64,000 nucleotides of DNA from an uncultured Saprospiraceae bacterium (GTDB lineage: Bacteria > Bacteroidota > Bacteroidia > Chitinophagales > Saprospiraceae): NCBI GenBank assembly GCA_937959275.1, contig CALGLU010000040.1, positions 1 to 64,000 on the forward strand. Direction: 5' to 3'. The position numbers were made by a program, and so were the translations under genes. The notes under the pieces are model-generated. The model saw only the letters and a program-made list of their open reading frames with translations, did not search any database and was not told the origin of the DNA. Below, piece after piece: positions 32,606 through 60,830 of the stretch. Within the stretch, counting starts at the first letter, position 1. The number at the start of each line of letters is the position of its first letter.

Positions 32606-33745
32606 ATGCAGAAGATAAAATATAAAGCCAAAGAGTGGGATTATAGCTTTAAATCTATGACCTGGTGGAACAGAGATAAAGTGAAAAATGCAAAAGTCAT
32701 GGTCGTTGGCTGTGGAGCATTGGGCAATGAGGTCATTAAAAATTTAGTATTAATGAATGTTTCAAACATTGTAATTGTAGATTTTGATGAGATAGAATAT
32801 TCTAATCTCTCAAGGTCTATTCTATTTGACCATTCGCATGTGACTAACTCGTCTAGGAAAGTCGATGCGGTTAAGCACAAAGTTGAACAGATCAACCCAA
32901 CTGTAACTGTAGAGGCTCTGCATGCTGATGTATGTCATGGCGTGGGTCTATCCTATTTTGAAGAGGTAGATGTCATTATCTCCTGTCTTGACAATAGACA
33001 AGCCCGATTATTTTTAAATAGATATGCGTTTCAATTTTCTACACCTTGGATAGATGGTGCCATAGAGAATGTCTCCGGTACAGTCAAAATATATCGGAAA
33101 GGAGAAAACTGTTATGAATGTAATCTAACAGATATAGAACGACAAGAGATAAAAGCCAAACTAGCCTGTGCAGATGTTGCAGCGCAATATGAATCACACG
33201 GAAGTATTCCAACAACTTCCATTTCCGCCTCAATTATAGGAGCCATACAAGTCCAGGAAGCACTTAAAATAATACATGGATACGAAGATGAATTGATGAC
33301 ACAAAGCCTCTATTATGAGGGCTTTCACAATCTATACCTGAATTATACTGAGACAATGACGAATCCTGATTGTCACTGTCAAATGGAGGATATACACCTA
33401 TTAAGGACCGAATTAAGTCACAAAGCAACAATAGAGAGTCTGTTTGAAGAGATGCATAAATCACTAGAAGAATCAGATCCGATCATTATGCTACGTAGTC
33501 CATTGATCCTTAAGGTACAAACGATGAATCAAGACAAGACTGCCGAGATAAGCATTCCAAAATATAAGTTGAAGGATTATTTCGATGAAGATCTTATGAT
33601 TCTAAATCAAGTGGATCGCATTGACCACAGCTTCTCAGACAAGACGTTAACGCTTGAAGACATAGGAATAGCAAGCAACGATATTATAAAATATATAAGT
33701 AAAGAAGGAACTATGAAATTTTTAAAATTAAAACTAAACTCATGA
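32606..33745 (+). CDS. E1-like ubiquitin-activating enzyme (ThiF/MoeB fold), 379 aa
   Basis: The adenylation domain is complete: VVGCGALGN at 34-41 (nucleotide-binding Gly loop), VDFDEIEYSNLSR at 58-70 with the Asp that binds ATP ribose and the N--R motif, and CLDN at 127-130. Cys169-x2-Cys172 and Cys256-x-Cys258 probably bind zinc as in MoeB/ThiF. Cys188 (KLACADVA), before the PTTSISASIIGAIQVQEALK helix, corresponds to the region of the active Cys in MoeB-like enzymes. A C-terminal extension of about 120 residues is unique to this protein and may contact E2 or the ubiquitin-like partner. Expected reaction: adenylation and thioester formation of the Ubl encoded next (4-bp ATGA overlap). Confidence 0.85.
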   Translation: MQKIKYKAKEWDYSFKSMTWWNRDKVKNAKVMVVGCGALGNEVIKNLVLMNVSNIVIVDFDEIEYSNLSRSILFDHSHVTNSSRKVDAVKHKVEQINPTVTVEALHADVCHGVGLSYFEEVDVIISCLDNRQARLFLNRYAFQFSTPWIDGAIENVSGTVKIYRKGENCYECNLTDIERQEIKAKLACADVAAQYESHGSIPTTSISASIIGAIQVQEALKIIHGYEDELMTQSLYYEGFHNLYLNYTETMTNPDCHCQMEDIHLLRTELSHKATIESLFEEMHKSLEESDPIIMLRSPLILKVQTMNQDKTAEISIPKYKLKDYFDEDLMILNQVDRIDHSFSDKTLTLEDIGIASNDIIKYISKEGTMKFLKLKLNS

Positions 33746-34017
33746 CACAGGATATACCAGTTATCGTCCGCGTGATGCCAAGTGCTGATGAATTAGAAAT
33801 AAGCATCCCTAGTTCAGCAACACCCAGAGAATTAATAAATCACATACTTGACGCAGACATTGGGGTGCCAAAAACAGATGCACAATCGAATCAAGTTGTA
33901 TATCAACTGATACCTAAAGGCAAAAACGAAGTCCTTAAGGAGTCTGAAACATTTTCTCAAGGAGATGTCCAAGCTAATGATGTCATTCTCATGATCCCCA
34001 AAGTAATTGCGGGATAA
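33742..34017 (+). CDS. ubiquitin-like modifier (beta-grasp), 91 aa
   Basis: The order of elements fits a beta-grasp: strand PVIVRVMP (5-12), strand ELEISIP (17-23), helix TPRELINHILDA (27-38), strand VVYQLIPKG (53-61), then L-E-ETFSQGDVQANDVILMIPK, much like the small YukD/EsaB class. It ends ...IPKVIAG, so the natural C-terminus is Ala-Gly with no tail to remove. Canonical modifiers end in Gly-Gly. It overlaps the E1 gene by 4 bp and its stop overlaps the E2 start (TAATG), so the three proteins are made together. Likely the modifier of the conjugation pathway; its target is unknown. Confidence 0.75.
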   Translation: MTQDIPVIVRVMPSADELEISIPSSATPRELINHILDADIGVPKTDAQSNQVVYQLIPKGKNEVLKESETFSQGDVQANDVILMIPKVIAG

Positions 34018-34637
34018 TGAAGTATCAAGATCCTTGGTTAAGTAGATTGCAGATGGAGCACGATGCCATCAAAGAATATTGTGAGAATTCAGATCTAGTC
34101 AATTTTTCAGCTTCTTTATTGAGAGAGGGCCTTCCGCCTGATCGATATCTAGTCCACTACAATATTAAAAGCATTACAAGCATAGATTCGGATCAACGTC
34201 CAATTTATGGTTATGATCACTATGTTAGCATAGACCTACCTCATGATTACCCTATGGTATCTGGTCCTATATGCAAAATGAACTCTCAAATATGGCACCC
34301 AAACATTAGACATGATGGACAATTCAAAGGTAGAATATGTATCAATTCCAATGCATTGGGTTCTTGGTTTACACTTGACATGCTTGTGCATCATTTGGGA
34401 GAAATGATTCAATACAAGAACTACCATGCAGAACCGATACAACCCTATCCTGAAGATCCAAAGGTTGCCAATTGGATCAAACAATATGCAGAGCCATCAG
34501 GCCTCTTAAACAAGAATCAGTCTAAAGCAATAGATGATCGCCCCTTGCAAAAGCCATCACAAGAATGGCTGTCTAAAAGGCAAAAAACGATTAGCATTAA
34601 AAGAAGAAATTTAAACAGGAAACCCTTATATAAATGA
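34017..34637 (+). CDS. E2-like ubiquitin-conjugating enzyme (UBC fold), 206 aa
   Basis: The core is recognisably UBC: strand/loop HYVSIDLPHDYPMVSGP at 68-84, HPN at 94-96 (the oxyanion Asn motif of eukaryotic E2s), then Cys108 in GRICIN as catalytic Cys. SWFTLDMLVHHLGEM at 116-130 is in the place of the W-P--T----L crossover helix, and PEDP near 145-148 matches the usual N-DP. HPN and Cys are four residues further apart than in typical E2s. After residue 165 a basic tail (SKRQKTISIKRRNLNRK) is added, perhaps for membrane or nucleic-acid contact. Start chosen at the ATG overlapping the Ubl stop. Expected to carry Ubl as a thioester; no E3 is visible. Confidence 0.85.
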   Translation: MKYQDPWLSRLQMEHDAIKEYCENSDLVNFSASLLREGLPPDRYLVHYNIKSITSIDSDQRPIYGYDHYVSIDLPHDYPMVSGPICKMNSQIWHPNIRHDGQFKGRICINSNALGSWFTLDMLVHHLGEMIQYKNYHAEPIQPYPEDPKVANWIKQYAEPSGLLNKNQSKAIDDRPLQKPSQEWLSKRQKTISIKRRNLNRKPLYK

Positions 34638-36175
34638 AGTCCTTATACTACACCATACTATTTCTCTTAATATCTACTTATTGTTTTACACAAAACACCA
34701 TTGATTTTGAATACTTCAGAAGAGCAGGAAAGGTAGATGTGAATTACTATGTGAAAAATGAACAATCAAAATCACAAATTCCTGTCCAACATGAAGTCAC
34801 TTTAGAAAACACATCCGAACATCAATATTTCATTGTTGAACTTAGCAATTTAAGATTAGGTCTCGATAAGAATACGTCCGAACAAAAACAAATAAAAGAT
34901 GCCATAAATTATATGGTACATGTGCCTATTGATCCATCTTCGATTACACTCAGCACAGAATCCTTAAAATTTAGCAACATAACAAACGATGGATTGCTAG
35001 CAGCAATGAGTACGGATAAAGCCAATAAGAAAATAGAAATTTATTATGAATATAAAAACACACTAGCTGTTAATAGTATTTCCGACCTCCAGATCAAATT
35101 TAAAGTTGAAGCGATTGAGGGATACAGACCATTAAAAGAAGAACACAAAGGTGGTGAAATAATAAAATGTAAAATAACTGTAAAACCAAATAAACATTAT
35201 CATCAACAAAAAGAAATAGCAACTGCTGAAAATAAATTATTCTCAAATTACCTAAATACTTCAGAGACGGCATACAAAATAAAATATGCTCGAGACTATT
35301 TATCAAAATTTCCAAATTCAAATCAAGATAGACTAGAAGACATACAGGTTTTTTTATCTGGCATGGCGAGTTATATCAACCCAATTGATCATGACAAAAA
35401 AATGTATAAACAGATTATAAAATTCTGCGTAGACGAACAAGAAAAAAGCAGATGCCAAACTCTCTGCACGCAATATCAAGACTTTGTCTGGGATGAGCCT
35501 CAGCATTACAAAGGAACATACTTAGAAAGAGCATATTTACATAGGATTCAATTGTTTGCCGACTCTCCAAATCAAGAATGGCTGAGCTGGTGTGAAAAAT
35601 ATATACAAAAATTCCCTAGTTCTAAGGATAGCTATGCAGTACAAACATTAAAAGATGAATACTTGCAATCCATTGAAGACCAGAAGAATAAGTCTCGATC
35701 ACCCTTCATCCAAAGGAGTACATCTAGCTATAACCAAACTGATATAAAGGAGCTTACAATCGACTCCATAGATGTTGCAGAAATTGAAGTAGAAGAAGAA
35801 ATACTCATTCCACAAAAAAAAGACTGGGCAACAATTTTAATTCATGATGACAAGTCAGGTATAATCGTTAGGACAGGTGGACTATCAGATGAAGGCTATG
35901 TTATAGAATTTAGAAATGTTACAGATCAGCTAGTCGAATACGACCCCTCTTTTGTAGGAGAAAAAGAGTCAGTGGAATTAGATGAAGTCCTTGATGGAAG
36001 GTTTAAAGATGGTCATTACAAAATCTCAGTCTTTAGTAAGATGGACAGACAATTATTAGATACAAATATGATTGAGTATAATTCTACTAAACTGTCTCCT
36101 GAATTTACATATATATTACTGGTCAGTTTTATCGCTCTTGGATTCTTTAGCTATAAAAAATATTATAAACTATAG
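34634..36175 (+). CDS. exported protein with C-terminal TM anchor inside the conjugation operon, 513 aa
   Basis: Signal peptide (TILFLLISTYCFTQ) at the start and one TM helix at the end (about 490-508, YILLVSFIALGFF) followed by KKYYKL, so the bulk is periplasmic and anchored in the inner membrane. Residues about 20-180 are beta-rich and about 185-340 helical, with a repeated KYAR/CEKYIQKFP type of helix (DYLSKFPNS and KYIQKFPSS). The latter suggests TPR-like repeats. Residues about 390-480 form a second beta domain. It sits between E2 (4-bp overlap) and the JAMM gene (5 bp), so it links cytoplasmic Ubl chemistry to the envelope. No family recognised. Confidence 0.55.
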   Translation: MKSLYYTILFLLISTYCFTQNTIDFEYFRRAGKVDVNYYVKNEQSKSQIPVQHEVTLENTSEHQYFIVELSNLRLGLDKNTSEQKQIKDAINYMVHVPIDPSSITLSTESLKFSNITNDGLLAAMSTDKANKKIEIYYEYKNTLAVNSISDLQIKFKVEAIEGYRPLKEEHKGGEIIKCKITVKPNKHYHQQKEIATAENKLFSNYLNTSETAYKIKYARDYLSKFPNSNQDRLEDIQVFLSGMASYINPIDHDKKMYKQIIKFCVDEQEKSRCQTLCTQYQDFVWDEPQHYKGTYLERAYLHRIQLFADSPNQEWLSWCEKYIQKFPSSKDSYAVQTLKDEYLQSIEDQKNKSRSPFIQRSTSSYNQTDIKELTIDSIDVAEIEVEEEILIPQKKDWATILIHDDKSGIIVRTGGLSDEGYVIEFRNVTDQLVEYDPSFVGEKESVELDEVLDGRFKDGHYKISVFSKMDRQLLDTNMIEYNSTKLSPEFTYILLVSFIALGFFSYKKYYKL

Positions 36176-36180
36176 CCAAA

Positions 36181-36720
36181 GTGAAAAAACTAAACATCTG
36201 TAATGATCAATTCAATTATCACAAAATACAATTATCAGAATATTGGCGTGACACACTCATTGAAGTTGTCTATGTATCTACTAAAATATTTGATCTATTA
36301 AATGAATATTATGTCAACGATTCTCATGCAACTCATGACCCTCATATAGAGCATGGAGCTTTTCTATTGGGCGATTACTCACGCACAGAGTCTGGCCAGT
36401 ATGATATCACCATCGACCACTTAATTCTCGTCGAAGCAGAAGAACAATCCATTACAAATATTCAATTTGGTTCTGCCGCATGGCTTAAACTTGACAATGC
36501 ATTAGAGGATAATCCTGGATCTAAAATCGTAGGTTGGTTTCACACCCATCCCGGACATGGTATTTTTTTAAGCAGAGATGATTTAAATGTCTCGTATACT
36601 TATTTTAATAAACCATATCAAATTGCATTATTATTAGATAATCAGATTTCCCTAAAAAACAACCAATTAGAATTAGGGATATTTTCCTTCAAAGAAAACG
36701 GAGAAATCAATAATTATTAA
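36181..36720 (+). CDS. JAMM/JAB-type metalloprotease, probable Ubl deconjugase, 179 aa
   Basis: The zinc site is intact: Glu57 in IEHGAFLLG, then His121-x-His123-Pro and Ser131-x2-Asp134 in HTHPGHGIFLSRDD, which fits the JAMM pattern H-x-H-x7-S-x2-D. The WFHTHPG context is typical of bacterial JAB/Mov34 peptidases. Length fits a single domain. The start is a GTG at 36181; there is no other Met in the protein, so the choice is forced. It lies 5 bp after the membrane-anchored protein gene and ends the operon. Likely role: removal or processing of the ubiquitin-like modifier. The Ubl ends directly in Gly, so processing may not be needed for activation and deconjugation is more likely. Confidence 0.85.
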   Translation: MKKLNICNDQFNYHKIQLSEYWRDTLIEVVYVSTKIFDLLNEYYVNDSHATHDPHIEHGAFLLGDYSRTESGQYDITIDHLILVEAEEQSITNIQFGSAAWLKLDNALEDNPGSKIVGWFHTHPGHGIFLSRDDLNVSYTYFNKPYQIALLLDNQISLKNNQLELGIFSFKENGEINNY

Positions 36721-36966: not shown

Positions 36967-38109
36967 ATGGATACAATATTTGTTCACATTAATTCTGCAA
37001 AGCAGTTTATTTCGCAAGGTGTCCAAATACTCGTTGGTACAATTCTTCAAACAGGAAGCCCATCAAATCCACACATTACAAATCCGACATTAGGGCCAAA
37101 CTCAGATTTACCACATTATAATCCACAACCTTGGGGAGACCCACAACCATTGACAGAAGACAATTCTTATACAATAGTTACGAGATCATTTGCACCTGAT
37201 TCTACTTTTGGAGGTGGCTTTGAAGGCAACGATAGAGGATTTAGTACAGACATAGATGCTGGTTCCAAAGTAAGTCAAGAAATCGGTATAGACTTAGATG
37301 AAGAGCAACCGATAACGAGCTTTGAAGAGCATAGTGATGAAACGACTCATCGTCTGGTACCAGAGAGAATTCATTCTCCTACAGAAGTCCCTGAAGGCGG
37401 CATTCTACATCAAAATGTGATTCAGGATGGAGATAAAACCATCTTACAATTTGGAACAGAGATAGATGCAGAGAATCCTTTTATACCAAATCCCTTTTCT
37501 GATCACAACCCTGCACCTTCAATAGATGTCTTTACAGAATATGAAATTGTACAAGATAAAGAGTCCAATACGCTAACCATTGCTGGGACGATAACGGGTG
37601 ATGACTTTCCTGCAACGGAAGCATTAATCTACGATGCCAATGGTCAGCCATTGTTTTTAGGTGTTGGTGCCCCTCCTGAATTAGCAAGCCCACTGACAAC
37701 TTTATTAGGAGAAAATCACAGGCCAATAACTGATTTTGATATCGTCGTCAATACAGACGAGCAAGGCAATTTTGAATCAGTCATATCTGAAGGGCAAGAA
37801 TATACGATTGAAGAATGGAATGAATCATTCACTTCTCAAGAAGTGGAGTTTACCGACCCATTGACAGATCCTATTAACGGAAGTATAGAAGAAATAAATG
37901 AAGCTGCAGGCGAAGTATCTGATGAATTCGATGAGGCTGGTCAAGAGATCAGAGATGCAGATGGATTCATCGACACCACTGGTGAAATCATAGAAGGTGG
38001 TGGAGAAATTCTGGGTGAAGTCGGAGAAGGAATTGCTGAGACAGGAGACGCCTTTGTAGACGGTGTTGGGGATACAATTGGTGGGGTCAGAGACGTTTTG
38101 GGCATCTAA
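36967..38109 (+). CDS. leader-bearing acidic protein A, 380 aa
   Basis: It begins MDTIFVHINSAKQFISQGVQ, the leader shared with the proteins at 38158, 41143 and 43046 (M-D/E-x-I-x-x-H/G-x-x-x-A-K/R pattern). LGPNSDLPHYNP follows near residue 40 and also occurs in the 373-aa protein. The body is acidic, with beta-rich segments around 180-300 and a helical, Gly/Glu-rich C-terminal part (EIIEGGGEILGEVGEGIAET, then DTIGGVRDVLGI). There is no conventional signal peptide, no TM segment and no cysteine of note. First gene of a unit that ends with an ATP-grasp ligase. Probably a substrate or effector of the locus; no family recognised. Confidence 0.55.
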   Translation: MDTIFVHINSAKQFISQGVQILVGTILQTGSPSNPHITNPTLGPNSDLPHYNPQPWGDPQPLTEDNSYTIVTRSFAPDSTFGGGFEGNDRGFSTDIDAGSKVSQEIGIDLDEEQPITSFEEHSDETTHRLVPERIHSPTEVPEGGILHQNVIQDGDKTILQFGTEIDAENPFIPNPFSDHNPAPSIDVFTEYEIVQDKESNTLTIAGTITGDDFPATEALIYDANGQPLFLGVGAPPELASPLTTLLGENHRPITDFDIVVNTDEQGNFESVISEGQEYTIEEWNESFTSQEVEFTDPLTDPINGSIEEINEAAGEVSDEFDEAGQEIRDADGFIDTTGEIIEGGGEILGEVGEGIAETGDAFVDGVGDTIGGVRDVLGI

Positions 38110-38157: not shown

Positions 38158-41124
38158 ATGGACTCAATATTTTCTGGCATACAATCAGCAAGACAACATG
38201 TGCAAGACGCAAAATCTAAACTTAGTGCCGCAATCGCAGCCTACACCGCAGACTTAGCAAACAACACTGGCGGCCATCAAGGCAGCGATGTGGGTAATGG
38301 TGACTATGGAGGCTACCAAGGTGTTACAATAGCTAACTCTGGTGTAACGCAGATAGCAAATGACAATCAAAATGCATACGAGAATGCTGCATATGGGAAC
38401 GGAGACAATTCCAACTCCAATCAAGGCGACATCGCATCTAATAATTTTGTCACAGAAAGCGCGTATAATAATCAAGACGCATACGAGAATGCAGCTTATG
38501 GGAACGGAGACAACTCCAACTCCAACTCCAATCAAAACACATTAACAACTAATAATTTTGTCACAGACAGCGCAAATAATAATCAAGACGCATACGAGAA
38601 TGCAGCTTATGGAGGCAATAATGGAATCGCAGGGACTCAAGGAACTAACGCAGGCACTTCTCTTGACGTTATCGGCAACGACACAGATAACGATGCCGGT
38701 AACGGTGCTTATAGTGGTCCTCAGGGCGGTGAACTCTATCCTTCAAATCCTGAAGTAGTAGGTGAAAGTTACAGCGGCGAACAAGGTGGGACGCCTGGAT
38801 CAGTTCCTGATAACGCAACTGGTGGACCTAACAGTCTATCCACAGGCCATACAACAAATCCTGAATCGGTTGTCGGACTCGATAGCAACACTATGAATGG
38901 ACTTAACAATACAGATAGCAATGATGCGGGTACAATGACTACAGATGAACACACGGTTAATGCAGGAGTCGACCTAGGCGTTGTCAGTGGTTCTGTAGGT
39001 CAGACAACTGGCAGTGCAGAACAAGTAACCCACAATGCAGATGGCACCTCATCTGTTATTAGTCAAGACAACATCAATACTGGTGTAACTGGTGGCGTGG
39101 GTGTAGTTGTTGCCAACATTGAATCTGGCTCAGCACACACTAATATTCACAGTGTAGAAAATTCTGGTCCAACTGAGCAATTACAAGATAGTATTAATGA
39201 TAATGGAGGGCTCCTCGACACATCTGACATTTCAGCTATACCAGAAGGAATAACTGTCACAGAGATTGGTGAACCTGGCTTTGGTCTGTTCGATGGTGGA
39301 GATACAGACACCGCATCTCTCAGCACTGGAGTATCGGTTGGAGTCGAACTACCTGGCGATATTGGCGCAGAATTCTCTTCTGAGAGCACAGCAACCGTGA
39401 GTACTACAAATGTTGGTGGCCTTGACACTACAATTGCTACAAATAACGGAGACACTACAACGGTGGCCACAGGTGAAACGTCTATTACAGAGACAACTCA
39501 TTCAGTTCAGAACTCAGACGGCGTTTCGGTAGGGGACTCAGGTCCAGTATCATCAGATACATTTGCTGCTACAAACACGAGCCAACACACAGTAACTGAA
39601 GGAATGGACTACCCGAATACTGCGGACGGACAAAACGCTGCACAGACTCACGCAGATACTGGTGATCTTACTCTAGACGAGAGCGGTCAATATGATGTGA
39701 CGACTCAAACCACAAACACGCACACTGAAACCATGACTCAAGGAGGCATTTCTGTAAATACACCTGGCTCAACTATATCAGGTGGGGCTCCCGAAGTTCT
39801 CAATTCTGAAGTTGAACAGATGACTACAGTGGAGCATATGCAAGGTGATCCAAATAGTGGCACAAATCATTGGCCAGAAATGTTTGGTGGTGACCAAGTC
39901 CTAGGCACTTCAACATCACACTCTATGACTGAGAGTCCACAAAATGGAGAAGATGGATTTGCTGTAACTCAAACATCTGATTTCCAGGGACAGGGTACTC
40001 CAAATATAGAAGAAGTACAAGTTGATACAACTGGTGGTTTGTCATATGATATGACTCCTGCAGAAATGCAAGAACATGCCCAGACCGCCTTGCACTTTGA
40101 CCCAGACAATCAAGTATTACAAGATATAGCAAATGGCGAATCAGCCCCTGAAGCAATCAGCAATAGTGGTAATCCATTAACTGATACTTTCGTTGGTAAT
40201 GACAATGCACCAACTAATGCAGCACTTGAATCGATTGCCACTCTCGGTGATCCGCAGGCAATGTATGAAGCACAGTCTGGAGTTGCAGATGCGAATTGGG
40301 GAGGATCAACTACTGATACAAATTCGGACTCTAGCGGAGACGGAGCTGGTACTGGTTCGACTGTTAATACTTCTGTCGCAGAGAGTGCAAATAACAATCA
40401 GGATTCTTACGAAAATGAAGCATACGGTAGTTCTGACACTGGATCTGATTCGGACAGTGATTCTGATTCTAGTACGAATAGTGGATCAACTACTAGTAGT
40501 TCAGTAACTGAGAGTGCTAATAGTAATCAAGATTCTTACGAAAATGAAGCGTATGGTAATACTGACTCTAGTTCTGATTCAAACTCTAGTACTGATTCAG
40601 ACAGTGACTCTAGTACGGATAGTGGCACGACGACTAGCGGTTCCGTGACAGAGAGTGCTAATGATAATCAGGATTCTTACGAAAATGCAGCGTACGGTAA
40701 TACTGATACTACAACTACAACTACTTCAGATAGTGATTCTGATGACGATGATGACGATGATGACGATGGTGGTTGTTTTCTGACTACCTCAGCATGTGAA
40801 CACCGTGGGCTTTCTGATGATTGTCATGAGCTGACAGTGCTACGCGGATTCCGTGATACATGGATGCATGCGACACCTGAATTACAAGAGCAGGTACAGG
40901 AGTACTACCGCGTCGCACCAGCAGTTGTCGAATCTATACAGGCGATGCCTGATCGAACTGTTATTCTTGAGTCCATGTTTACAGAATATATTCGCCCAAG
41001 TGTTGAGGCCATTGAGCGTGGCGAAAATGATATGGCATACGATATCTATGTAAAGATGTTGTCTAACGTTCAAAAGTTGACGGCAGCAAACATGTCTTCT
41101 ACTGCTATATCAATAGAGGCTTAA
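38158..41124 (+). CDS. leader-bearing giant repeat protein with CFI-box-like C-terminus, 988 aa
   Basis: Leader MDSIFSGIQSARQHVQDAKS. A repeat of the form NNQDAYENAAYGN occurs three times near residues 70-160 and three times near 740-860, each followed by a Ser/Asp/Asn-rich linker. The long middle is Thr/Ser/Gly/Asp-rich and beta-prone without cysteines. A poly-Asp run leads to the last 115 residues: GGCFLTTSACE, then CHELTVLRGFRDTWM, then VQEYYRVAPAVVESI. This resembles the CFI-box C-terminal domain (CFI-TAAYG, then L--LR-FRD, then YY--SP--A--I). It is probably an extracellular filament or adhesin whose terminal box is a processing or anchoring point. It is the second gene of the unit and lies 48 bp after the 380-aa gene. 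Confidence 0.6.
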   Translation: MDSIFSGIQSARQHVQDAKSKLSAAIAAYTADLANNTGGHQGSDVGNGDYGGYQGVTIANSGVTQIANDNQNAYENAAYGNGDNSNSNQGDIASNNFVTESAYNNQDAYENAAYGNGDNSNSNSNQNTLTTNNFVTDSANNNQDAYENAAYGGNNGIAGTQGTNAGTSLDVIGNDTDNDAGNGAYSGPQGGELYPSNPEVVGESYSGEQGGTPGSVPDNATGGPNSLSTGHTTNPESVVGLDSNTMNGLNNTDSNDAGTMTTDEHTVNAGVDLGVVSGSVGQTTGSAEQVTHNADGTSSVISQDNINTGVTGGVGVVVANIESGSAHTNIHSVENSGPTEQLQDSINDNGGLLDTSDISAIPEGITVTEIGEPGFGLFDGGDTDTASLSTGVSVGVELPGDIGAEFSSESTATVSTTNVGGLDTTIATNNGDTTTVATGETSITETTHSVQNSDGVSVGDSGPVSSDTFAATNTSQHTVTEGMDYPNTADGQNAAQTHADTGDLTLDESGQYDVTTQTTNTHTETMTQGGISVNTPGSTISGGAPEVLNSEVEQMTTVEHMQGDPNSGTNHWPEMFGGDQVLGTSTSHSMTESPQNGEDGFAVTQTSDFQGQGTPNIEEVQVDTTGGLSYDMTPAEMQEHAQTALHFDPDNQVLQDIANGESAPEAISNSGNPLTDTFVGNDNAPTNAALESIATLGDPQAMYEAQSGVADANWGGSTTDTNSDSSGDGAGTGSTVNTSVAESANNNQDSYENEAYGSSDTGSDSDSDSDSSTNSGSTTSSSVTESANSNQDSYENEAYGNTDSSSDSNSSTDSDSDSSTDSGTTTSGSVTESANDNQDSYENAAYGNTDTTTTTTSDSDSDDDDDDDDDGGCFLTTSACEHRGLSDDCHELTVLRGFRDTWMHATPELQEQVQEYYRVAPAVVESIQAMPDRTVILESMFTEYIRPSVEAIERGENDMAYDIYVKMLSNVQKLTAANMSSTAISIEA

Positions 41125-41142
41125 AACCATTAAAATAAAACC

Positions 41143-41928
41143 ATGGAGAATATCATTTCACATTTAGAAATAGCAAAGCAAGAGATCAGTGCAGGTATAG
41201 CATCTCTTGGCATCATAATAAGTCAAGGTGGATCTGCTGGTTCCCCTTCATCGGGTACTCCAAACCCTGGTCCACAATTTATTCACCCTCCAAATGAAGC
41301 GACAACGTTGGCTAAAGGTGAGGAGGATGGTACTCCAATTATTCCACCAATGGAAAGCATAACACATGCCCGAGGTGAAGAACAGTGTGGTGGAGGAATT
41401 GAAGCCTCAACCCTTGCCAGAGGTGAGGAAGAGGGCGGCGGTTCAATCGACTACTCTACTCTAGCGATAGGTGAAGAAGATACCAAACCTCCTGGTCATG
41501 AAATATATACTCGGGCACTTGGAGAAGAAGCAGGTAGCAGTCCCCCGTTTGAACTGTCGTCAGCAAGCCTAGGTGAAGAAGATGGCAGTGACAGCCCCTA
41601 CGATACAGTAACAACACTTATGTTTGGTGAAGAGGATGGGGCTATCGATACTCCAGTTGAAGCAACGACACTTATGACTGGTGAAGAGGATGGCAGCGGC
41701 AAACCCTATGATACAGTAACATCACATATGCTTGGTGAAGAGGATGGAGCTATCGATACTCCAGTTGAAGTAACTACGCTTATGACCGGTGAAGAGGATG
41801 GTAGTGGCAAACCGTTTGATACAGTAACGACACTTATGCTTGGAGAAGAGGATGGGGCTTTCGATACTACAGTTGATGCACCTACGCTTATGACTGGTGA
41901 AGAAGATGGCAATCCATATGTGAAATAG
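41143..41928 (+). CDS. graspetide (plesiocin-like) precursor with twelve core repeats, 261 aa
   Basis: Leader MENIISHLEIAKQEISAGIA, then a Gly/Pro/Ser spacer to about residue 52. From 54 to 256 a core of the form TTLxxGEEDG repeats twelve times; GEE is invariant, the second Thr/Ser is kept in all, and the first Thr varies (TT, ST, SS, IT, YT, PT). Known plesiocin-type graspetides have the core TTxxxxEE, in which an ATP-grasp ligase joins Thr side chains to Glu side chains by ester bonds. The last six cores form three near-identical 36-codon blocks (period 108 bp), so the array grew by duplication. The ligase gene follows 43 bp later. Modification is inferred. Confidence 0.75.
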   Translation: MENIISHLEIAKQEISAGIASLGIIISQGGSAGSPSSGTPNPGPQFIHPPNEATTLAKGEEDGTPIIPPMESITHARGEEQCGGGIEASTLARGEEEGGGSIDYSTLAIGEEDTKPPGHEIYTRALGEEAGSSPPFELSSASLGEEDGSDSPYDTVTTLMFGEEDGAIDTPVEATTLMTGEEDGSGKPYDTVTSHMLGEEDGAIDTPVEVTTLMTGEEDGSGKPFDTVTTLMLGEEDGAFDTTVDAPTLMTGEEDGNPYVK

Positions 41929-41971
41929 ATTTAGAAATTTTAATACGACAAACTGTCTTTAAACCCTTTGT

Positions 41972-42871
41972 ATGTTTCTTTTATTTGGTGGTAAAAATGA
42001 TTTTAATATTCAGGCATTTGCAAAGCAATTAAGAGCTAAGCAGGTGGAGCATCAATCCATAATTATAGAAGAAGACAACATTCCATCTATTCATTGGGAC
42101 TTAAATAAAGACAAACTCTTGATAAACGATAAATTCATTAATCCGAGTTCAATATTTCTAAGGGACGATGTATTTGGATCAGTCACTTCAAACCCAAGTT
42201 CTAGTTATAGTTGGTATACTACCTTGCGCTCTTGGGCCTTATCCCATTATAGAACGTCAATGTTCAACAAGCATTATATTGGTATGAATAAATCCTATAA
42301 TCTTGTCTTAGCACAATCAGTCGGATTTGATATTCCAAAAACAATCATTACCAATGACACAGACCAGTTAAGTGCCATTAAAAAGAAACAGAATTATATT
42401 ATTAAACCCGTCTCTGGTGGACAGTATACTAGAGATTTAACGAATTATTTAAATACAGCAATACCAGCTAAAAAAAATCATACGAGTTTAACGTATTTAC
42501 AGAATAAATTAATCCAACCAGAGATGCGCATTTTTGGAATTGGTGAACTGTTTTATGGCTTTTGGATAAAATCAAATTTACTTGATTATAGAGAGGATAA
42601 GAAAGCACAAATTATTGCCTGCAAAGCTCCACTAGATTTAAGTCAAAAATTATCAAGATTAATGAAAGAATTAAAACTTGATTTTGTAGCTGCTGATTTT
42701 AAAACCTGTCCCCAAACGAATAAATTACTTTTTCTAGAAGTCAACTCAGGTCCAATGTTTGGAAGTTTTGATTATTACAGTCGTGGAGCCTTGACCAAAG
42801 CTATGATTTCATGGCATTTGAAAAGAGCTAAAAAATTAGCACCTACTGGAATCACTGCTAAAGCCAGTTAG
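41972..42871 (+). CDS. ATP-grasp ligase, probable graspetide-type macrocyclase, 299 aa
   Basis: ATP-grasp features: NYIIKPVSGGQYTR at about 132-145 (the ATP-binding Lys and Gly-rich loop), then DFVAADFKTCPQ and LFLEVNSGPMFGSF at about 230-262, with the D and E-x-N metal ligands. The overall size and the F-LRDD-FGS segment near residue 70, where graspetide ligases have a WYRR-like motif, fit the MvdC/MvdD/PsnB group. It is directly downstream of the twelve-core precursor and should join Thr/Ser to Glu side chains in it. It may also act on the other proteins with the same leader. No signal peptide; cytoplasmic. Confidence 0.75.
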   Translation: MFLLFGGKNDFNIQAFAKQLRAKQVEHQSIIIEEDNIPSIHWDLNKDKLLINDKFINPSSIFLRDDVFGSVTSNPSSSYSWYTTLRSWALSHYRTSMFNKHYIGMNKSYNLVLAQSVGFDIPKTIITNDTDQLSAIKKKQNYIIKPVSGGQYTRDLTNYLNTAIPAKKNHTSLTYLQNKLIQPEMRIFGIGELFYGFWIKSNLLDYREDKKAQIIACKAPLDLSQKLSRLMKELKLDFVAADFKTCPQTNKLLFLEVNSGPMFGSFDYYSRGALTKAMISWHLKRAKKLAPTGITAKAS

Positions 42872-43045: not shown

Positions 43046-44167
43046 ATGGAAGCCATTATTTCACATCTGGTAGCTGCAAAAGGATTTGTCTCTAGTGGAC
43101 AGTCCGCACTCGACACAGCAGCTAGTGGAAGTCAGGTCACTGATCCTAGACTAGGTCCAAATTCTGATCTTCCACACTATAGACCGGACATACCGTATGC
43201 ACCTGAATTAAATGTCGGACCAAATACAGATCTACCTCATTATAATCCCCTGCCAAGTAGTGCAGATCCTGGCAGTGGTGCTACCGATGACTTAGGTCCT
43301 TCAAGCAGCTCAGGATTCGACCATTCATATCAAGAAGAAGTCATTACTGAATTTGGGAATGAACCTGAAGATGGCCCATTGGTAGATAGCGTCGGCGTAT
43401 ATGAACATGACCTTGGACAATGGAGTGATTCTGTTCATTCAGTCGATTTATCTGCTGTACCTGGCGACGCGGAATTGAACTTTCTTGGTTACGATGCTAA
43501 TGGAGCTGCAGTCGTTTCTATCGGAGCAGATGGTGTAGTTGTCACCTTAGAAGGCGAAGCTTCAGCATATCTTGCACAATTAAATCACAGCATAGAGGCT
43601 GGTCCATTAGGTATAACCGTAGAAGCCTTAGTCGGCGCTAGTGCCAGTGCATCTGCAGACTTTATAATTAACCCAACTGAAGGAGATTTCAAAGTTGAAT
43701 TACAGGCAGGAGTGGTTGTTGGAGCTACGATTGATGCGAATGGAGAATTAGAATTGGGTCACCTCACCGTTGAAGGTGGAGTCACTGGAGTTGCCGGTTT
43801 TGCCGCAGATGTCAACCTAGATGTTGGATTTGAGGATTGGACATTTGAATTTGATGGTGGAGGAAAATTAGCTTTTCTACTTGGCGGTGGAGCAGATGTT
43901 AGTTTCTCCCTTGATGGAAGAGCAATTGTAGCAGATGTTGGCGATGTGGGCAAAGTTGTCTGGGATCAGAGTGGAAATATTATTGGTGGCGCTATAGACT
44001 TTGGAGATGGCGTTGTTGAATTCGGAGGCGATGTTGGAGGAGCCATTCTAGACTTTGGAAATGATGTCGGTGGTGCCGCAGTAGATCTTGGAAGTGATGC
44101 TGGCGGAGCTGTGTTAGATTTTGGAGGTGATGTCGGCGGAGCTATCTGGGGTGCGTTCACTGATTAA
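43046..44167 (+). CDS. leader-bearing acidic protein with 11-residue C-terminal repeats, 373 aa
   Basis: It opens MEAIISHLVAAKGFVSSGQS, the shared leader. LGPNSDLPHYRP and VGPNTDLPHYNP follow (near 40 and 65), the motif also seen once in the 380-aa protein. The centre (about 145-315) is a smooth beta-rich, Ala/Gly/Val/Asp-rich domain (GVVVTLEGEASAYLAQL, then LEGLTVEGG-type strands). The last 65 residues repeat an 11-residue unit, GGDVGGAILDF-like, five times. No signal peptide and no Cys. Its neighbour, 23 bp downstream, is a DcrB/EagR-like small protein that may be its chaperone. No family recognised. Confidence 0.5.
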   Translation: MEAIISHLVAAKGFVSSGQSALDTAASGSQVTDPRLGPNSDLPHYRPDIPYAPELNVGPNTDLPHYNPLPSSADPGSGATDDLGPSSSSGFDHSYQEEVITEFGNEPEDGPLVDSVGVYEHDLGQWSDSVHSVDLSAVPGDAELNFLGYDANGAAVVSIGADGVVVTLEGEASAYLAQLNHSIEAGPLGITVEALVGASASASADFIINPTEGDFKVELQAGVVVGATIDANGELELGHLTVEGGVTGVAGFAADVNLDVGFEDWTFEFDGGGKLAFLLGGGADVSFSLDGRAIVADVGDVGKVVWDQSGNIIGGAIDFGDGVVEFGGDVGGAILDFGNDVGGAAVDLGSDAGGAVLDFGGDVGGAIWGAFTD

Positions 44168-44190: not shown

Positions 44191-44640
44191 ATGAAAACAA
44201 TACATTTCAAAAACATAAGCCTTGAGGTTTTAGATTCTTGGAAAGAATCGAAAATAAATGTTAATTATATTTTCATTCAATCAAAAAAGATTGGTGAGTC
44301 TTATTGCACACTTTCTTTATACCATTTTAAAGATCCAGAAAGAGAATTAAATGAAGTCTATCAGACTACACTTGACAAGTATGCAAAACTTAAGAAATAT
44401 AAATTAATAGCACAGAATTCGATCGTCTCTGATGGTATTAATTATAACGACCGTAAGTTGTCCTTTTATGATAAAAAAAGAAAAAGTACAATAATCATTC
44501 AAGAGAAAATAATGGATATCGATGGAGAATTATATGTTATATCAGCACAAATGCATGAGTGCCCATTATTGTCTGTCTATAAAAAAGTAATACCGGAAAC
44601 ATTTAATTCTTTGACTATTCACACGTCAATTGTAGAATAA
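44191..44640 (+). CDS. DcrB/EagR (DUF1795)-like small protein, possible chaperone, 149 aa
   Basis: It begins MKTIHFKNISLEVLDSW, then VNYIFIQSKK, TLSLYHFKDPE, SIVSDGINYNDRKLSFY and TIIIQEKIMDIDGELYVISAQ. The order (F--FSLE-P--W-D-S, then YQR--F, then I-Q--, then DG---V---) is like DcrB/DUF1795 proteins. In type VI systems, members of this fold (EagR) are effector chaperones. It has no signal peptide. It lies 23 bp downstream of the leader-bearing 373-aa protein, so a chaperone/substrate pair is a fair guess. Family assignment is moderate; it could be another PsbP-like fold. Confidence 0.45.
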   Translation: MKTIHFKNISLEVLDSWKESKINVNYIFIQSKKIGESYCTLSLYHFKDPERELNEVYQTTLDKYAKLKKYKLIAQNSIVSDGINYNDRKLSFYDKKRKSTIIIQEKIMDIDGELYVISAQMHECPLLSVYKKVIPETFNSLTIHTSIVE

Positions 44641-44700
44641 ATTATTTTCGATCATGATGTAATTTGATTACTTAAATTTTTAAGTAGATAGTTTTTCATT

Positions 44701-44735
44701 GCATTTTCACTTCACTGTGAAAATGCATTTTTTTA
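44701..44735 (+). terminator. strong rho-independent terminator
   Basis: GCATTTTCAC (44701-44710) pairs perfectly with GTGAAAATGC (44717-44726) across a six-base loop, and a run of seven T follows. It ends the 43046-44640 unit, so the gene at 44887 has its own promoter. Confidence 0.85.
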
Positions 44736-44886: not shown

Positions 44887-47298
44887 ATGTCATTACAATC
44901 GACACACAGTATTCAGGATATGTCGCAAGAAGCTCTACAGGAGATTCAAACGATGTTAGAGAATATAACACAACTACAGTCAGAAGCCGAAGCAGCCAGG
45001 GAGGCTGCTGTTTCTGCACAACAAGAAGCGGAGACTTCCGCTTCTGCTGCTGAATCTTCCGCAACAGCGGCTGATTCATTTGCTACATCTGCTGAACAAT
45101 TTGCACAATCTGCTGATTCGTTTGCAGATGCTTCACAGATATCTGCTGAAGCTTCAGAGGGTTCTGCTGGAGAAGCTGCCAGTTCTGCTGGTGAAGCTGC
45201 CGCATCTGCTGGTGAAGCTGCCGCATCTGCTGGTGAAGCTGCCGCATCTGCTGGTGAAGCTGCTGGTTCCGCTGGTGAAGCTGCCGCATCCGCTGGAGAA
45301 GCTGCTGGTTCTGCTGGAGAAGCTGCCGGTTCTGCTGGTGAAGCTGCTGGTTCCGCTGGAGAGGCTGCTGGTTCTGCTGGTGAAGCTGCTGGTTCTGCTG
45401 GTGAAGCTGCTGGTTCCGCTGGAGAAGCTGCTGGTTCTGCTGGTGAAGCTGCCGGTTCTGCTGGAGAAGCTGCTGGTTCCGCTGGAGAAGCTGCTGGTTC
45501 TGCTGGAGAGGCTGCCGCATCTGCTGGCGAAGCTGCTGGTTCTGCTGGTGAAGCTGCTGGTTCCGCTGGAGAGGCTGCTGGTTCTGCTGGTGAGGCTGCT
45601 GGTTCCGCTGGAGAAGCTGCCGGTTCTGCTGGAGAAGCTGCCGGTTCTGCTGGAGAGGCTGCCGGTTCTGCTGGTGAAGCTGCCGGTTCTGCTGGTGAGG
45701 CTGCTGGTTCTGCTGGTGAAGCTGCCGCATCTGCTGGCGAAGCTGCTGGTTCCGCTGGAGAGGCTGCCGGTTCTGCTGGAGAAGCTGCCGGTTCTGCTGG
45801 TGAGGCTGCTGGTTCTGCTGGAGAAGCTGCCGGTTCTGCTGGTGAAGCTGCTGGTTCTGCTGGAGAAGCTGCTGGTTCTGCTGGAGAGGCTGCCGCATCT
45901 GCTGGTGAAGCTGCTGGTTCCGCTGGAGAAGCTGCTGCATCTGCTGGAGAAGCTGCGGGTTCCGCTGGAGAGGCTGCTGGTTCTGCTGGTGAAGCTGCTG
46001 GTTCTGCTGGTGAAGCTGCTGGTTCCGCTGGAGAGGCTGCTGGTTCTGCTGGTGAAGCTGCCGGTTCCGCTGGAGAAGCTGCCGGTTCTGCTGGTGAAGC
46101 TGCCGGTTCTGCTGGTGAAGCTGCCGGTTCTGCTGGTGAAGCTGCTGGTTCTGCTGGAGAAGCTGCGGGTTCCGCTGGAGAAGCTGCTGGTTCTGCTGGA
46201 GAAGCTGCCGCATCTGCTGGTGAAGCTGCTGGTTCCGCTGGAGAGGCTGCTGGTTCCGCTGGAGAGGCTGCTGGTTCTGCTGGTGACGCTGCTGGTTCCG
46301 CTGGAGAAGCTGCTGCATCTGCTGGAGAAGCTGCCGGTTCTGCTGGTGAGGCTGCTGGTTCTGCTGGTGAAGCTGCCGGTTCCGCTGGAGAAGCTGCCGG
46401 TTCTGCTGGTGAAGCTGCCGGTTCTGCTGGTGAAGCTGCCGGTTCCGCTGGAGAAGCTGCCGGTTCTGCTGGTGAAGCTGCCGGTTCCGCTGGAGAAGCT
46501 GCTGGTTCCGCTGGAGAAGCTGCTGGTTCCGCTGGAGAAGCTGCTGGTTCCGCTGGAGAAGCTGCTGGTTCTGCAGGAGAAGCTGCTGGTTCTGCAGGAG
46601 AGGCTGCCGCATCTGCTGGTGAAGCAGAAGCTGCTAAAGAAAGCATAAACTCAGCATTAGGTGAGGTTGAATCTGCATTAGATGCAACGCAAGCCCACGC
46701 TGAAGAAGTAAAAGGTGAATTAGAAACAATTCAAACGGAAGCTGAAACGTCATTGGAAGCAACTCAGACTGCACAGACTGACGCTGAAACTGCTCAAACT
46801 GCTGCTGAAACTGCTCAAGCGAGTTCGGAAACTGCACAAGCCGCTGCCGAAACGGCACAAGCTGCTACAGAAACCGCTCAAGCTGCCGCAGAAACGGCTC
46901 AAGCTGCTGCGGAAACTGCACAAGCTGCTGCAGAAACTGCACAAGCCGCTTCTGAAACTGCTCAGGAATTAGCTGAAACAGGACAAGCTGGAGCTGAAGC
47001 TGCACAAGCTGCCGCAGAAACGGCTCAAGCTGCATCTGAAGCCGCTCAAGCTGCATCCGAAACTGCACAAGCTGCATCCGAAGCTGCCCAAGCTGCTGCT
47101 GAATCAGCACAAGGAGAAGCCGAAGGATCTGCAAGCGATGCTGCTAGTTCTGCCGCTGACGCTGCAAGTTCTGCTGCCGATGCTGCAAGTTCTGCTGCTG
47201 ATGCTGCAAGCTCTGCCGCTGACGCTAACTCGTCACAAGCATCTGCTGAAAGTGCATCTAGTGTTGCATGGCAAGCAGCTAGTGCGATTGCTGGATAG
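44887..47298 (+). CDS. giant heptad-repeat protein (about 70 GSAGEAA units), 803 aa
   Basis: Residues 1-90 are a charged helical head (MSLQSTHSIQDMSQEALQE at the start). From residue 92 to about 580 an unbroken run of about 70 heptads GSAGEAA follows, with only A/G, A/S and E/D changes. Residues about 600-640 are an ordinary charged helix. From about 650 to 735 a second heptad family (ETAQAAA) occurs, and the C-terminus repeats SSAADAA and ends AWQAASAIAG. An Ala-rich heptad with Gly at one position should form a long, thin alpha-helical bundle or fibre. There is no signal peptide and the protein lacks the shared leader of its neighbours. It is monocistronic, with a repeat array before and a strong terminator after it. 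Its length may vary between strains. Confidence 0.6.
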   Translation: MSLQSTHSIQDMSQEALQEIQTMLENITQLQSEAEAAREAAVSAQQEAETSASAAESSATAADSFATSAEQFAQSADSFADASQISAEASEGSAGEAASSAGEAAASAGEAAASAGEAAASAGEAAGSAGEAAASAGEAAGSAGEAAGSAGEAAGSAGEAAGSAGEAAGSAGEAAGSAGEAAGSAGEAAGSAGEAAGSAGEAAGSAGEAAASAGEAAGSAGEAAGSAGEAAGSAGEAAGSAGEAAGSAGEAAGSAGEAAGSAGEAAGSAGEAAGSAGEAAASAGEAAGSAGEAAGSAGEAAGSAGEAAGSAGEAAGSAGEAAGSAGEAAGSAGEAAASAGEAAGSAGEAAASAGEAAGSAGEAAGSAGEAAGSAGEAAGSAGEAAGSAGEAAGSAGEAAGSAGEAAGSAGEAAGSAGEAAGSAGEAAGSAGEAAGSAGEAAASAGEAAGSAGEAAGSAGEAAGSAGDAAGSAGEAAASAGEAAGSAGEAAGSAGEAAGSAGEAAGSAGEAAGSAGEAAGSAGEAAGSAGEAAGSAGEAAGSAGEAAGSAGEAAGSAGEAAGSAGEAAGSAGEAAASAGEAEAAKESINSALGEVESALDATQAHAEEVKGELETIQTEAETSLEATQTAQTDAETAQTAAETAQASSETAQAAAETAQAATETAQAAAETAQAAAETAQAAAETAQAASETAQELAETGQAGAEAAQAAAETAQAASEAAQAASETAQAASEAAQAAAESAQGEAEGSASDAASSAADAASSAADAASSAADAASSAADANSSQASAESASSVAWQAASAIAG
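45161..46625 (+). repeat. 21-bp minisatellite encoding GSAGEAA heptads
   Basis: About 70 tandem copies of a 21-bp unit (GGTTCTGCTGGAGAAGCTGCC type). Most variation is in third positions (GCT/GCC, GGT/GGA, GAA/GAG, TCT/TCC), which keeps the peptide nearly constant and may limit recombination. The tract stays in frame throughout. Confidence 0.85.
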
Positions 47299-60330: not shown

Positions 60331-60489
60331 AATTGATATTTTGGAAGTTGAATAATAGTGCACGATTCAGAAGAGCTAAAACATGCATTTCATTACGAAT
60401 GTAGTTAAAATTTAATACTAAACATCAACTCTCAACTGCCCCTCCTTGGACCAGATTCAATAAGATTTGAGATTGCAATAACAGGCTCG

Positions 60490-60830
60490 CCCTCGTTGGA
60501 CTCCGATCCAATGAGATCTGCGATTAAATCATACCATTTAATAACGTGCTGTTGGTTCGGAGACCAACAGCGGCAACCATAAAGTTAATACGGTAAACAA
60601 AAATGCCGGTAGTTCGGAGACCAACGGCGGCATTAGTTGTTGCTCCTAAAAACCGTGCCCTCGTTGGACTCCGATCCAACGAGATCTGCGATTAAATCAT
60701 ACCATTTAATAACGTGCTGTTGGTTCGGAGACCAACAGCGGCAACCATAAAGTTAATACGGTAAACAAAATATGCTATTGGTTCGGAGACCAACGGCGGC
60801 AATGTTAGACTCCGATCCAACGAGTTTAAA
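60490..60830. repeat. 113-bp direct repeats with GTTGG/CCAAC hairpins
   Basis: A 113-bp segment (60490-60602) recurs almost unchanged at 60658-60770, 168 bp downstream. Each copy holds two hairpins: GTTGGACTCCGATCCAAC and GTTGGTTCGGAGACCAAC. Further half-copies lie at 60609-60632 and 60777-60825. The GTTGG-CTCCG-CCAAC element also appears at 50182-50215, so it belongs to a genome-wide palindromic family. No gene is seen in 60364-60891. Confidence 0.75.

Follow-up and report, generated by a model that had tools for sequence, protein, structure and literature searches.

A putative twelve-core graspetide precursor, its PsnB-lineage ligase and a leader shared with core-less neighbours in an uncultured Saprospiraceae bacterium

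The 64,000-nucleotide stretch of DNA analysed here (the window; positions 1 to 64,000 of contig CALGLU010000040.1, assembly GCA_937959275.1, from an uncultured Saprospiraceae bacterium) encodes a putative multi-core graspetide precursor of 261 amino acids with 12 cores (41143..41928, forward strand) and, beginning 43 nt past its end on the same strand, an ATP-grasp ligase of 299 amino acids (41972..42871). Judged from their sequences, the two form a graspetide system of the plesiocin lineage, which appears new, within the literature compared, by its number of cores and above all by its leader. The best overall explanation, to which we assign a probability of about 0.76, is that the cores carry plesiocin-type ester rings, that they stand behind the leader of a set of cargo proteins, and that the product is a multivalent inhibitor. 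The original prediction, made from the sequence alone, had placed the cores in a large protein with the ligase adjoining it, and both open reading frames (ORFs) were recovered in that arrangement.

The precursor and its ligase

The translation of 41143..41928, whose N-terminus reads MENIISHLEIAKQEIS, contains 12 GEE motifs, one every 16–19 amino acids, whereas 20,000 shuffles that preserved the composition gave 0.65 on average and never more than 6. This bears out the twelve repeats with a constant GEE that had been predicted. The EE pair is kept in all 12 cores and the inner-ring position (the second of TTxxxxEE) always bears a hydroxyl (Thr in 10 cores, Ser in 2), while the outer-ring position (the first) is Thr or Ser in nine. 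Cores 2, 5 and 12 carry Ile, Tyr and Pro there and have no outer hydroxyl, so that the maximum is 21 esters and not 24. The proposed TTxxxxEE core therefore applies to nine cores if Ser is allowed, and its literal form TTLxxGEEDG to five (1, 7, 8, 10 and 11) but not to the other seven; the two rings per core that had been expected are possible for the same nine, giving at most 21 dehydrations.

The last six cores had been described as 108-bp duplicated blocks. They are duplicated, but as three tandem 108-bp units that hold two cores each (41572..41911, forward strand; TRF period 108, 3.1 copies, 86% matches). The first six cores have diverged enough to inform a codon comparison, and across all twelve the ring codons gave a pS (synonymous) of 0.71 and a pN (nonsynonymous) of 0.11, against 0.67 and 0.54 for the three loop codons. 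Because synonymous changes are many while the ring residues hold, unlike the loop codons, this speaks for purifying selection at the ring positions, for which recent copying alone is not enough. Ten distinct loop sequences are found among the twelve cores.

The ligase had no match at E ≤ 1 in a Pfam scan. Its four top NCBIfam families are graspetide-type maturases, all scoring below their cut-offs, followed by weak matches to RimK-type (RimK family, E 0.01) and D-Ala ligase families. The TIGR04187 cut-off is reached in none of 298 genomes of the order; at E ≤ 1e-6 some match occurs in 53 of them, and since E. coli and three archaeal controls match too, the weak TIGR04187 matches include other ATP-grasp enzymes. 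The top single-sequence match of the ligase is PDB chain 7drm (E 1.5e-6), which is PsnB, 5ig8 and 5ig9 being MdnB and MdnC (PMC10452190). In the PDB, a profile of five related ligases matched five different sequences with E ≤ 0.01, namely PsnB, AMdnB, CdnC, 5ig8 and 5ig9, with PsnB at the top over nearly its whole chain (E 1.6e-18; next best 3e-12).

In the main maximum-likelihood tree (47 rows, 202 columns, with five long rows including RimK dropped and with PsnB, CdnC and AMdnB as partial rows), the ligases of the window and of genome G232 and three f39 ligases group with PsnB and a Halocatena ligase (98/96, 7 rows), and the microviridin ligases MvdC and MvdD as well as CdnC and TgmB fall outside this group. 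The approximately unbiased (AU) test gave a borderline result (p 0.049) against a union of the window clade and the MvdC-type rows. The ligase keeps the ATP-grasp residues K145, R186, D205, R207, D242, E256 and N258, six of which (all except R207) are identical in 50/50 rows compared, and M262 and F266, present in 7/7 rows of the PsnB clade, mark the PsnB lineage. As the ATP-grasp residues are also found in E. coli RimK, they indicate an intact ATP-grasp enzyme and not its product. The original prediction had made its graspetide assignment depend on the family tree, and the tree places the ligase with PsnB. An AlphaFold2 model of the ligase built from a two-row alignment was of no use (predicted local distance difference test (pLDDT) score of 40). 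The window's ligase is the only one of the PsnB-type kind in its genome (G000), and a scan of viral contigs for relatives returned none.

Relatives of the pair are few. Two genomes among the 396 of the order that were searched have the ligase at E ≤ 1e-12, the window's own and G232; in G232, a precursor directly before the ligase carries TTLAIGEE, TTMALGEE and TTMAIPEE. A two-row ligase profile matched 10 of 395 genomes across the phylum at the same threshold, four of them above 190 bits: the window's own, G590, G609 and G701. The ligases of the last three are the closest to that of the window after G232 (36–38% identity) and share with it cores of the type TT(L/M)xxGEE directly upstream (one core reads ATMMVGEE), but their precursors have 80 amino acids, three cores and a different leader, which ends in GG; E1, ubiquitin-like, E2 and JAB genes, which adjoin the window pair, were not recognised on reading their listed flanking ORFs. 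Precursors with TTxxxxEE cores are thus paired with the ligase in four other genomes, and over the 24 cores of these and of the window (12 each) the inner hydroxyl is present in 24/24, the outer in 20/24 and the Gly in 23/24. Among the matches listed, clustered TTxxxxEE occurred in 0 of 30 TIGR04187-type control loci of the order (L037–L066, about 1.5 kb on each side, some clipped by contig ends). The PsnB grouping and the core–ligase pairs of these independent relatives support the reading as a graspetide precursor with its ligase.

The shared leader and the competing explanations

Profile searches delimited an N-terminal leader of 26 amino acids (41143..41220, forward strand), followed in the precursor by GG at residues 29–30, which is common to the precursor, to three neighbouring proteins encoded on the same strand, A (36967..38109), B (38158..41124) and D (43046..44167), and to a paralogue on contig C31. 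Searched with a profile built from the four window leaders, the genome shows a single additional site, on C31 (E 0.0062); it thus holds five copies, one of them with cores. The C31 copy belongs to a lone paralogue of protein B (L035 7608–10220, reverse strand), which has the same CFI-box C-terminus and lies apart from the E1-to-JAB cassette and the ligase. When the precursor's own leader was left out, the six-row A5 profile found it again at E 3.6e-6 (Z = 6000 proteins), and the predicted sharing of the leader with neighbouring proteins is upheld. At E ≤ 0.01 a wider leader profile matched four of 298 genomes of the family: G000 with five matches, G232 with two (both part of the profile), G467 with one (not part of it) and, weakly, G188. 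Each of the two G232 leaders, when left out singly, was missed by the profile of the remaining ones (E 1.8 and 5.7), so that firm homology of the leader is limited to G000 and G467. The G188 matches (E 0.0096, two places) were taken as chance; the one viewed, L075, is without such a neighbourhood. The leader profile does not match the GG-ended leaders of two of the three-core relatives even at E 100 (L090 and L092), and the window precursor lacks the type of leader that accompanies related ligases, a trait that is not strictly defining for a graspetide.

Neither TTxxxxEE nor xTxxxxEE occurs in A, B, D or the C31 paralogue, and D of G467 has no core either. G467, of the same genus and 88% complete, is syntenic with the window (identities of 65% for E1, 79% for the ubiquitin-like protein (Ubl), 64% for E2, 43% for a 512-amino-acid protein and 69% for D). 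A tblastn search of a 16.4-kb stretch of it with JAB, A, B, the precursor and the ligase (E ≤ 0.01) returned only the first 53 residues of A, aligned to D; the five genes themselves are absent from this stretch. A leader that occurs without cores and without an adjacent ligase is most simply read as the signal of a cargo set behind which plesiocin-type cores were placed, and these comparisons favour a cargo signal of the locus over a graspetide leader as the reading of the shared segment.

Under the explanation we prefer, the ligase would use ATP to form esters between the Thr/Ser hydroxyls and the Glu carboxylates of every TTxxxGEE core, yielding a chain of twelve hairpin-like, ester-ringed modules, of which nine could be bicyclic and those from cores 2, 5 and 12 at most monocyclic. 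Thr/Glu pairing in plesiocin is nested, and a like pairing is presumed for the window cores. The N-terminal segment, helical by its look, would act as the signal of the cargo set beside an E1-Ubl-E2-JAB cassette and not as a ligase-specific leader; the cores seem to have been transferred to this signal and increased in number. The starting point was perhaps a precursor with three cores, as found in the relatives, a direction suggested by the comparison. By analogy with plesiocin, the product is most likely a multivalent serine-protease inhibitor that would be exported or delivered. We regard it as possible, though rather doubtful, that this twelve-module ester-cross-linked inhibitor is a delivered effector, loaded by way of the segment that it has in common with its protein neighbours, whose route of export or delivery is tied to E1-Ubl-E2-JAB and whose leader is uncoupled from the modifying enzyme.

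Several points weigh against this explanation. The ester bonds, which we infer, and the inhibition are predictions; three cores lack the outer hydroxyl; and the ligase scores 59.5 of 350 bits with TIGR04187, far under every NCBIfam cut-off. When the long rows are kept, E. coli RimK and L061 also stand beside PsnB (52-row tree; 98/91, 9 rows), which in the case of RimK is probably long-branch behaviour. The contig of G232 ends within its precursor, and for this reason a precursor behind the shared leader is known from a single genome. The search of G467 for the ligase covered the 16.4-kb stretch; no exporter for the shared leader was identified; and the ligase would have to recognise a substrate behind a foreign leader.

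Three other explanations were weighed. Esters with a structural and not an inhibitory role, in a cross-linked acidic repeat rod that serves as a stable spacer or adhesin-like protein, appear unlikely. The precursor is indeed acidic (isoelectric point 4.05) with evenly spaced repeats, its neighbours B and 44887–47298 are also long and repeat-bearing, and corallotide, a large repeat graspetide, tends to aggregate (PMC13097080); however, ten loops among twelve cores are what would be expected if the loops face different proteases, and plesiocin, whose cores are of this type, is an inhibitor of serine proteases (PMC13097080). We consider it still less probable that the shared segment is a ligase-recognition leader and that A, B and D are further substrates modified at other residues. 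Such substrates would have to lack both core patterns, as the C31 paralogue does, the D orthologue of G467 has no ligase in the 16.4 kb examined, and the leaders of two relatives are unmatched by the leader profile; on the other side stand the arrangement of the four leader-bearing genes and the ligase in one strand-consistent run and a slight resemblance, by eye, of IISHL in the window leader to ILADL/VLSDL in those of the three-core relatives.

The least credible of the three is another ATP-grasp reaction, such as a RimK-like addition of glutamate, by which no rings would form. The scores under the curated cut-offs, the weak RimK match and the position of RimK in the 52-row tree are compatible with it, but all five PDB sequences matched at E ≤ 0.01 are graspetide enzymes (names from PMC10452190) and the spacing from hydroxyl to EE is kept in 24/24 cores.

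The cargo neighbours and the E1-Ubl-E2-JAB cassette

The leader profile and the core scan assign A, B and D to leader-bearing cargo proteins without cores; B also matches the CFI-box-CTERM family, and D has a glycine-rich C-terminus and an orthologue in G467. Just past the leader, A has one GPNSDLPHY-type motif, and D and its G467 orthologue (L074 10025–11110) have two each. Next to D, in the window as in G467, lies a gene for a protein of 149 amino acids (44191..44640, forward strand), followed on the same strand by a terminator-like hairpin with a T run (44700..44727), a kind of site of which the region holds 3 against 5.1 expected by chance. Strand and spacing suggest that A, B, the precursor, the ligase, D and the 149-amino-acid gene share one transcript. 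A DcrB/Eag-type chaperone was considered for the 149-amino-acid protein and rejected, as it and its G467 orthologue miss PF08786; the positional counterpart in G232 just reaches this model (27.6 of 27.2), the two do not align, and DcrB has no match in the window's genome at E ≤ 0.01. Further downstream, 44887–47298 encodes a protein of 803 amino acids in which a 21-bp repeat (SAGEAAG) recurs about 70 times, and a repetitive counterpart with a similar N-terminus occupies the same place in G467.

Upstream of the cargo and ligase run, E1, Ubl, E2 and JAB genes occur together on the forward strand as a putative ubiquitin-like conjugation cassette. They comprise an E1-like (ThiF) protein (32606..33745; ThiF 175 bits, over the cut-off), a YukD-like Ubl of 91 amino acids with a Gly end (33742..34017), an E2-like protein (34017..34637; UQ_con 30.5 bits, over the cut-off), a protein of 513 amino acids known from the ORF list and the G467 comparison and hydrophobic at both ends by eye (34634..36175), and a JAB peptidase (36181..36720; Prok-JAB 27.1 bits, over the cut-off) with an intact JAMM motif, HTHPGHGIFLSRDD. 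The Ubl, which completes this E1-Ubl-E2-513aa-JAB cassette, lies below the YukD cut-off in the window (20.1 of 27) and above it in G232 (37.6) and G098 (34.5); orthologues of it occur in G467 (79%), G232 and L029. The same cassette with other cargo is present in G232 (E1 54%, E2 45%, JAB 44% identity). Of 198 genomes examined in the order, 10 have JAB relatives at E ≤ 1e-8, among them that of the window, and in seven stretches around these relatives none of the genes was recognised, by eye, as such a ligase. Bil and other E1-E2-JAB ubiquitin-like operons likewise have these genes adjoining, and Ub-like/E1/E2/JAB operons have been described in general (PMC1779556); the window JAB is a weak match to the PADLOC BilC model (21.4 bits). 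Unlike such operons, the window locus adds leader-bearing cargo and a graspetide module, the module being present in two genomes.

In three further genomes of the family (L023, L024 and L025; first 3.5 kb), PAAR-like proteins, recognised by eye, adjoin E1-E2-JAB cassettes, a hint that the cassette is linked to a contractile delivery system. Delivery of the cargo by a type VI secretion system (T6SS) was considered and rejected, with no PAAR match in the window's genome and matches in 3/14 control genomes; TssD, which matched neither the window's genome nor any control genome, was uninformative. A TssR-like protein (19154–21712, reverse strand; 44 bits) lies beside ABC/FtsX-type genes, and no other T6SS families were found among the ORFs scanned around it. 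Two caspase-like proteins (by eye) are encoded near the E1-E2-JAB cassette of G170 (L026 2578–6440). At the G232 locus, a cargo protein with an HELVH metallopeptidase-like motif (L005 10216–11523, reverse strand) matches eCIS_core below the cut-off (E 0.00056). The precursor of the same locus ends in ..SSELIDLIKSWN and its lipase-like neighbour in ..NNLRSLIQSWK (L005 7753–8613; L004 2631–2356, reverse strand), and the two possibly share a C-terminal signal. Elsewhere in the window, 60489–60801 holds a 168-bp repeat (1.9 copies, 95% matches) with stretches that look palindrome-like by eye.

Relation to known graspetides and significance

Among known systems, plesiocin (PsnA2/PsnB, group 2) has, like the window, tandem TTxxxxEE cores, a single adjacent ATP-grasp ligase and a place in the PsnB clade, from which the window departs in having 12 cores and not 4, a protein of 261 amino acids and a leader common to core-less neighbours. 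Plesiocin is described as tetravalent, in accord with the four cores named in the original prediction, and thuringinin as trivalent (PMC12291112); the potency of plesiocin goes up with core number (PMC13097080). A group 2 product without one donor–acceptor set has been reported (PMC9576775), and monocyclic window cores therefore fit a known case. NHLM-type transporters often lie beside group 2 graspetides (PMC13097080), but the window pair has no adjoining NHLM-type/C39 transporter; no C39 peptidase domain was found in the window, and the one C39 match of the genome is on contig C5. Unusually long precursors, as in the window, are known from groups 34 and 35 and corallotide (five repeats), all with repeats, and from the large group 41 (PMC13097080). 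Corallotide differs in its KxxxD isopeptide units and its 2-oxoglutarate oxygenase, and a leader common to neighbours is not described for any of these in the part of PMC13097080 covered. The main text of PMC8939145 mentions neither ThiF nor ubiquitin, no co-mention of Saprospir was found among the listed matches of the graspetide literature, and no literature joining ATP-grasp with ThiF and JAB was found.

The leader of a ribosomally synthesised and post-translationally modified peptide usually recruits the modifying enzyme. At this locus, cores and ligase have apparently moved to a place behind a segment that is also present on proteins without cores. This would make leader-independent recognition directly testable, as well as modular export of cross-linked repeats. 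A single gene with twelve cores and ten loops would be a natural panel of constrained hairpins and would test how the potency of an inhibitor depends on its valency. A clue to the possible purpose of the cargo beside the E1-Ubl-E2-JAB cassette is offered as well.
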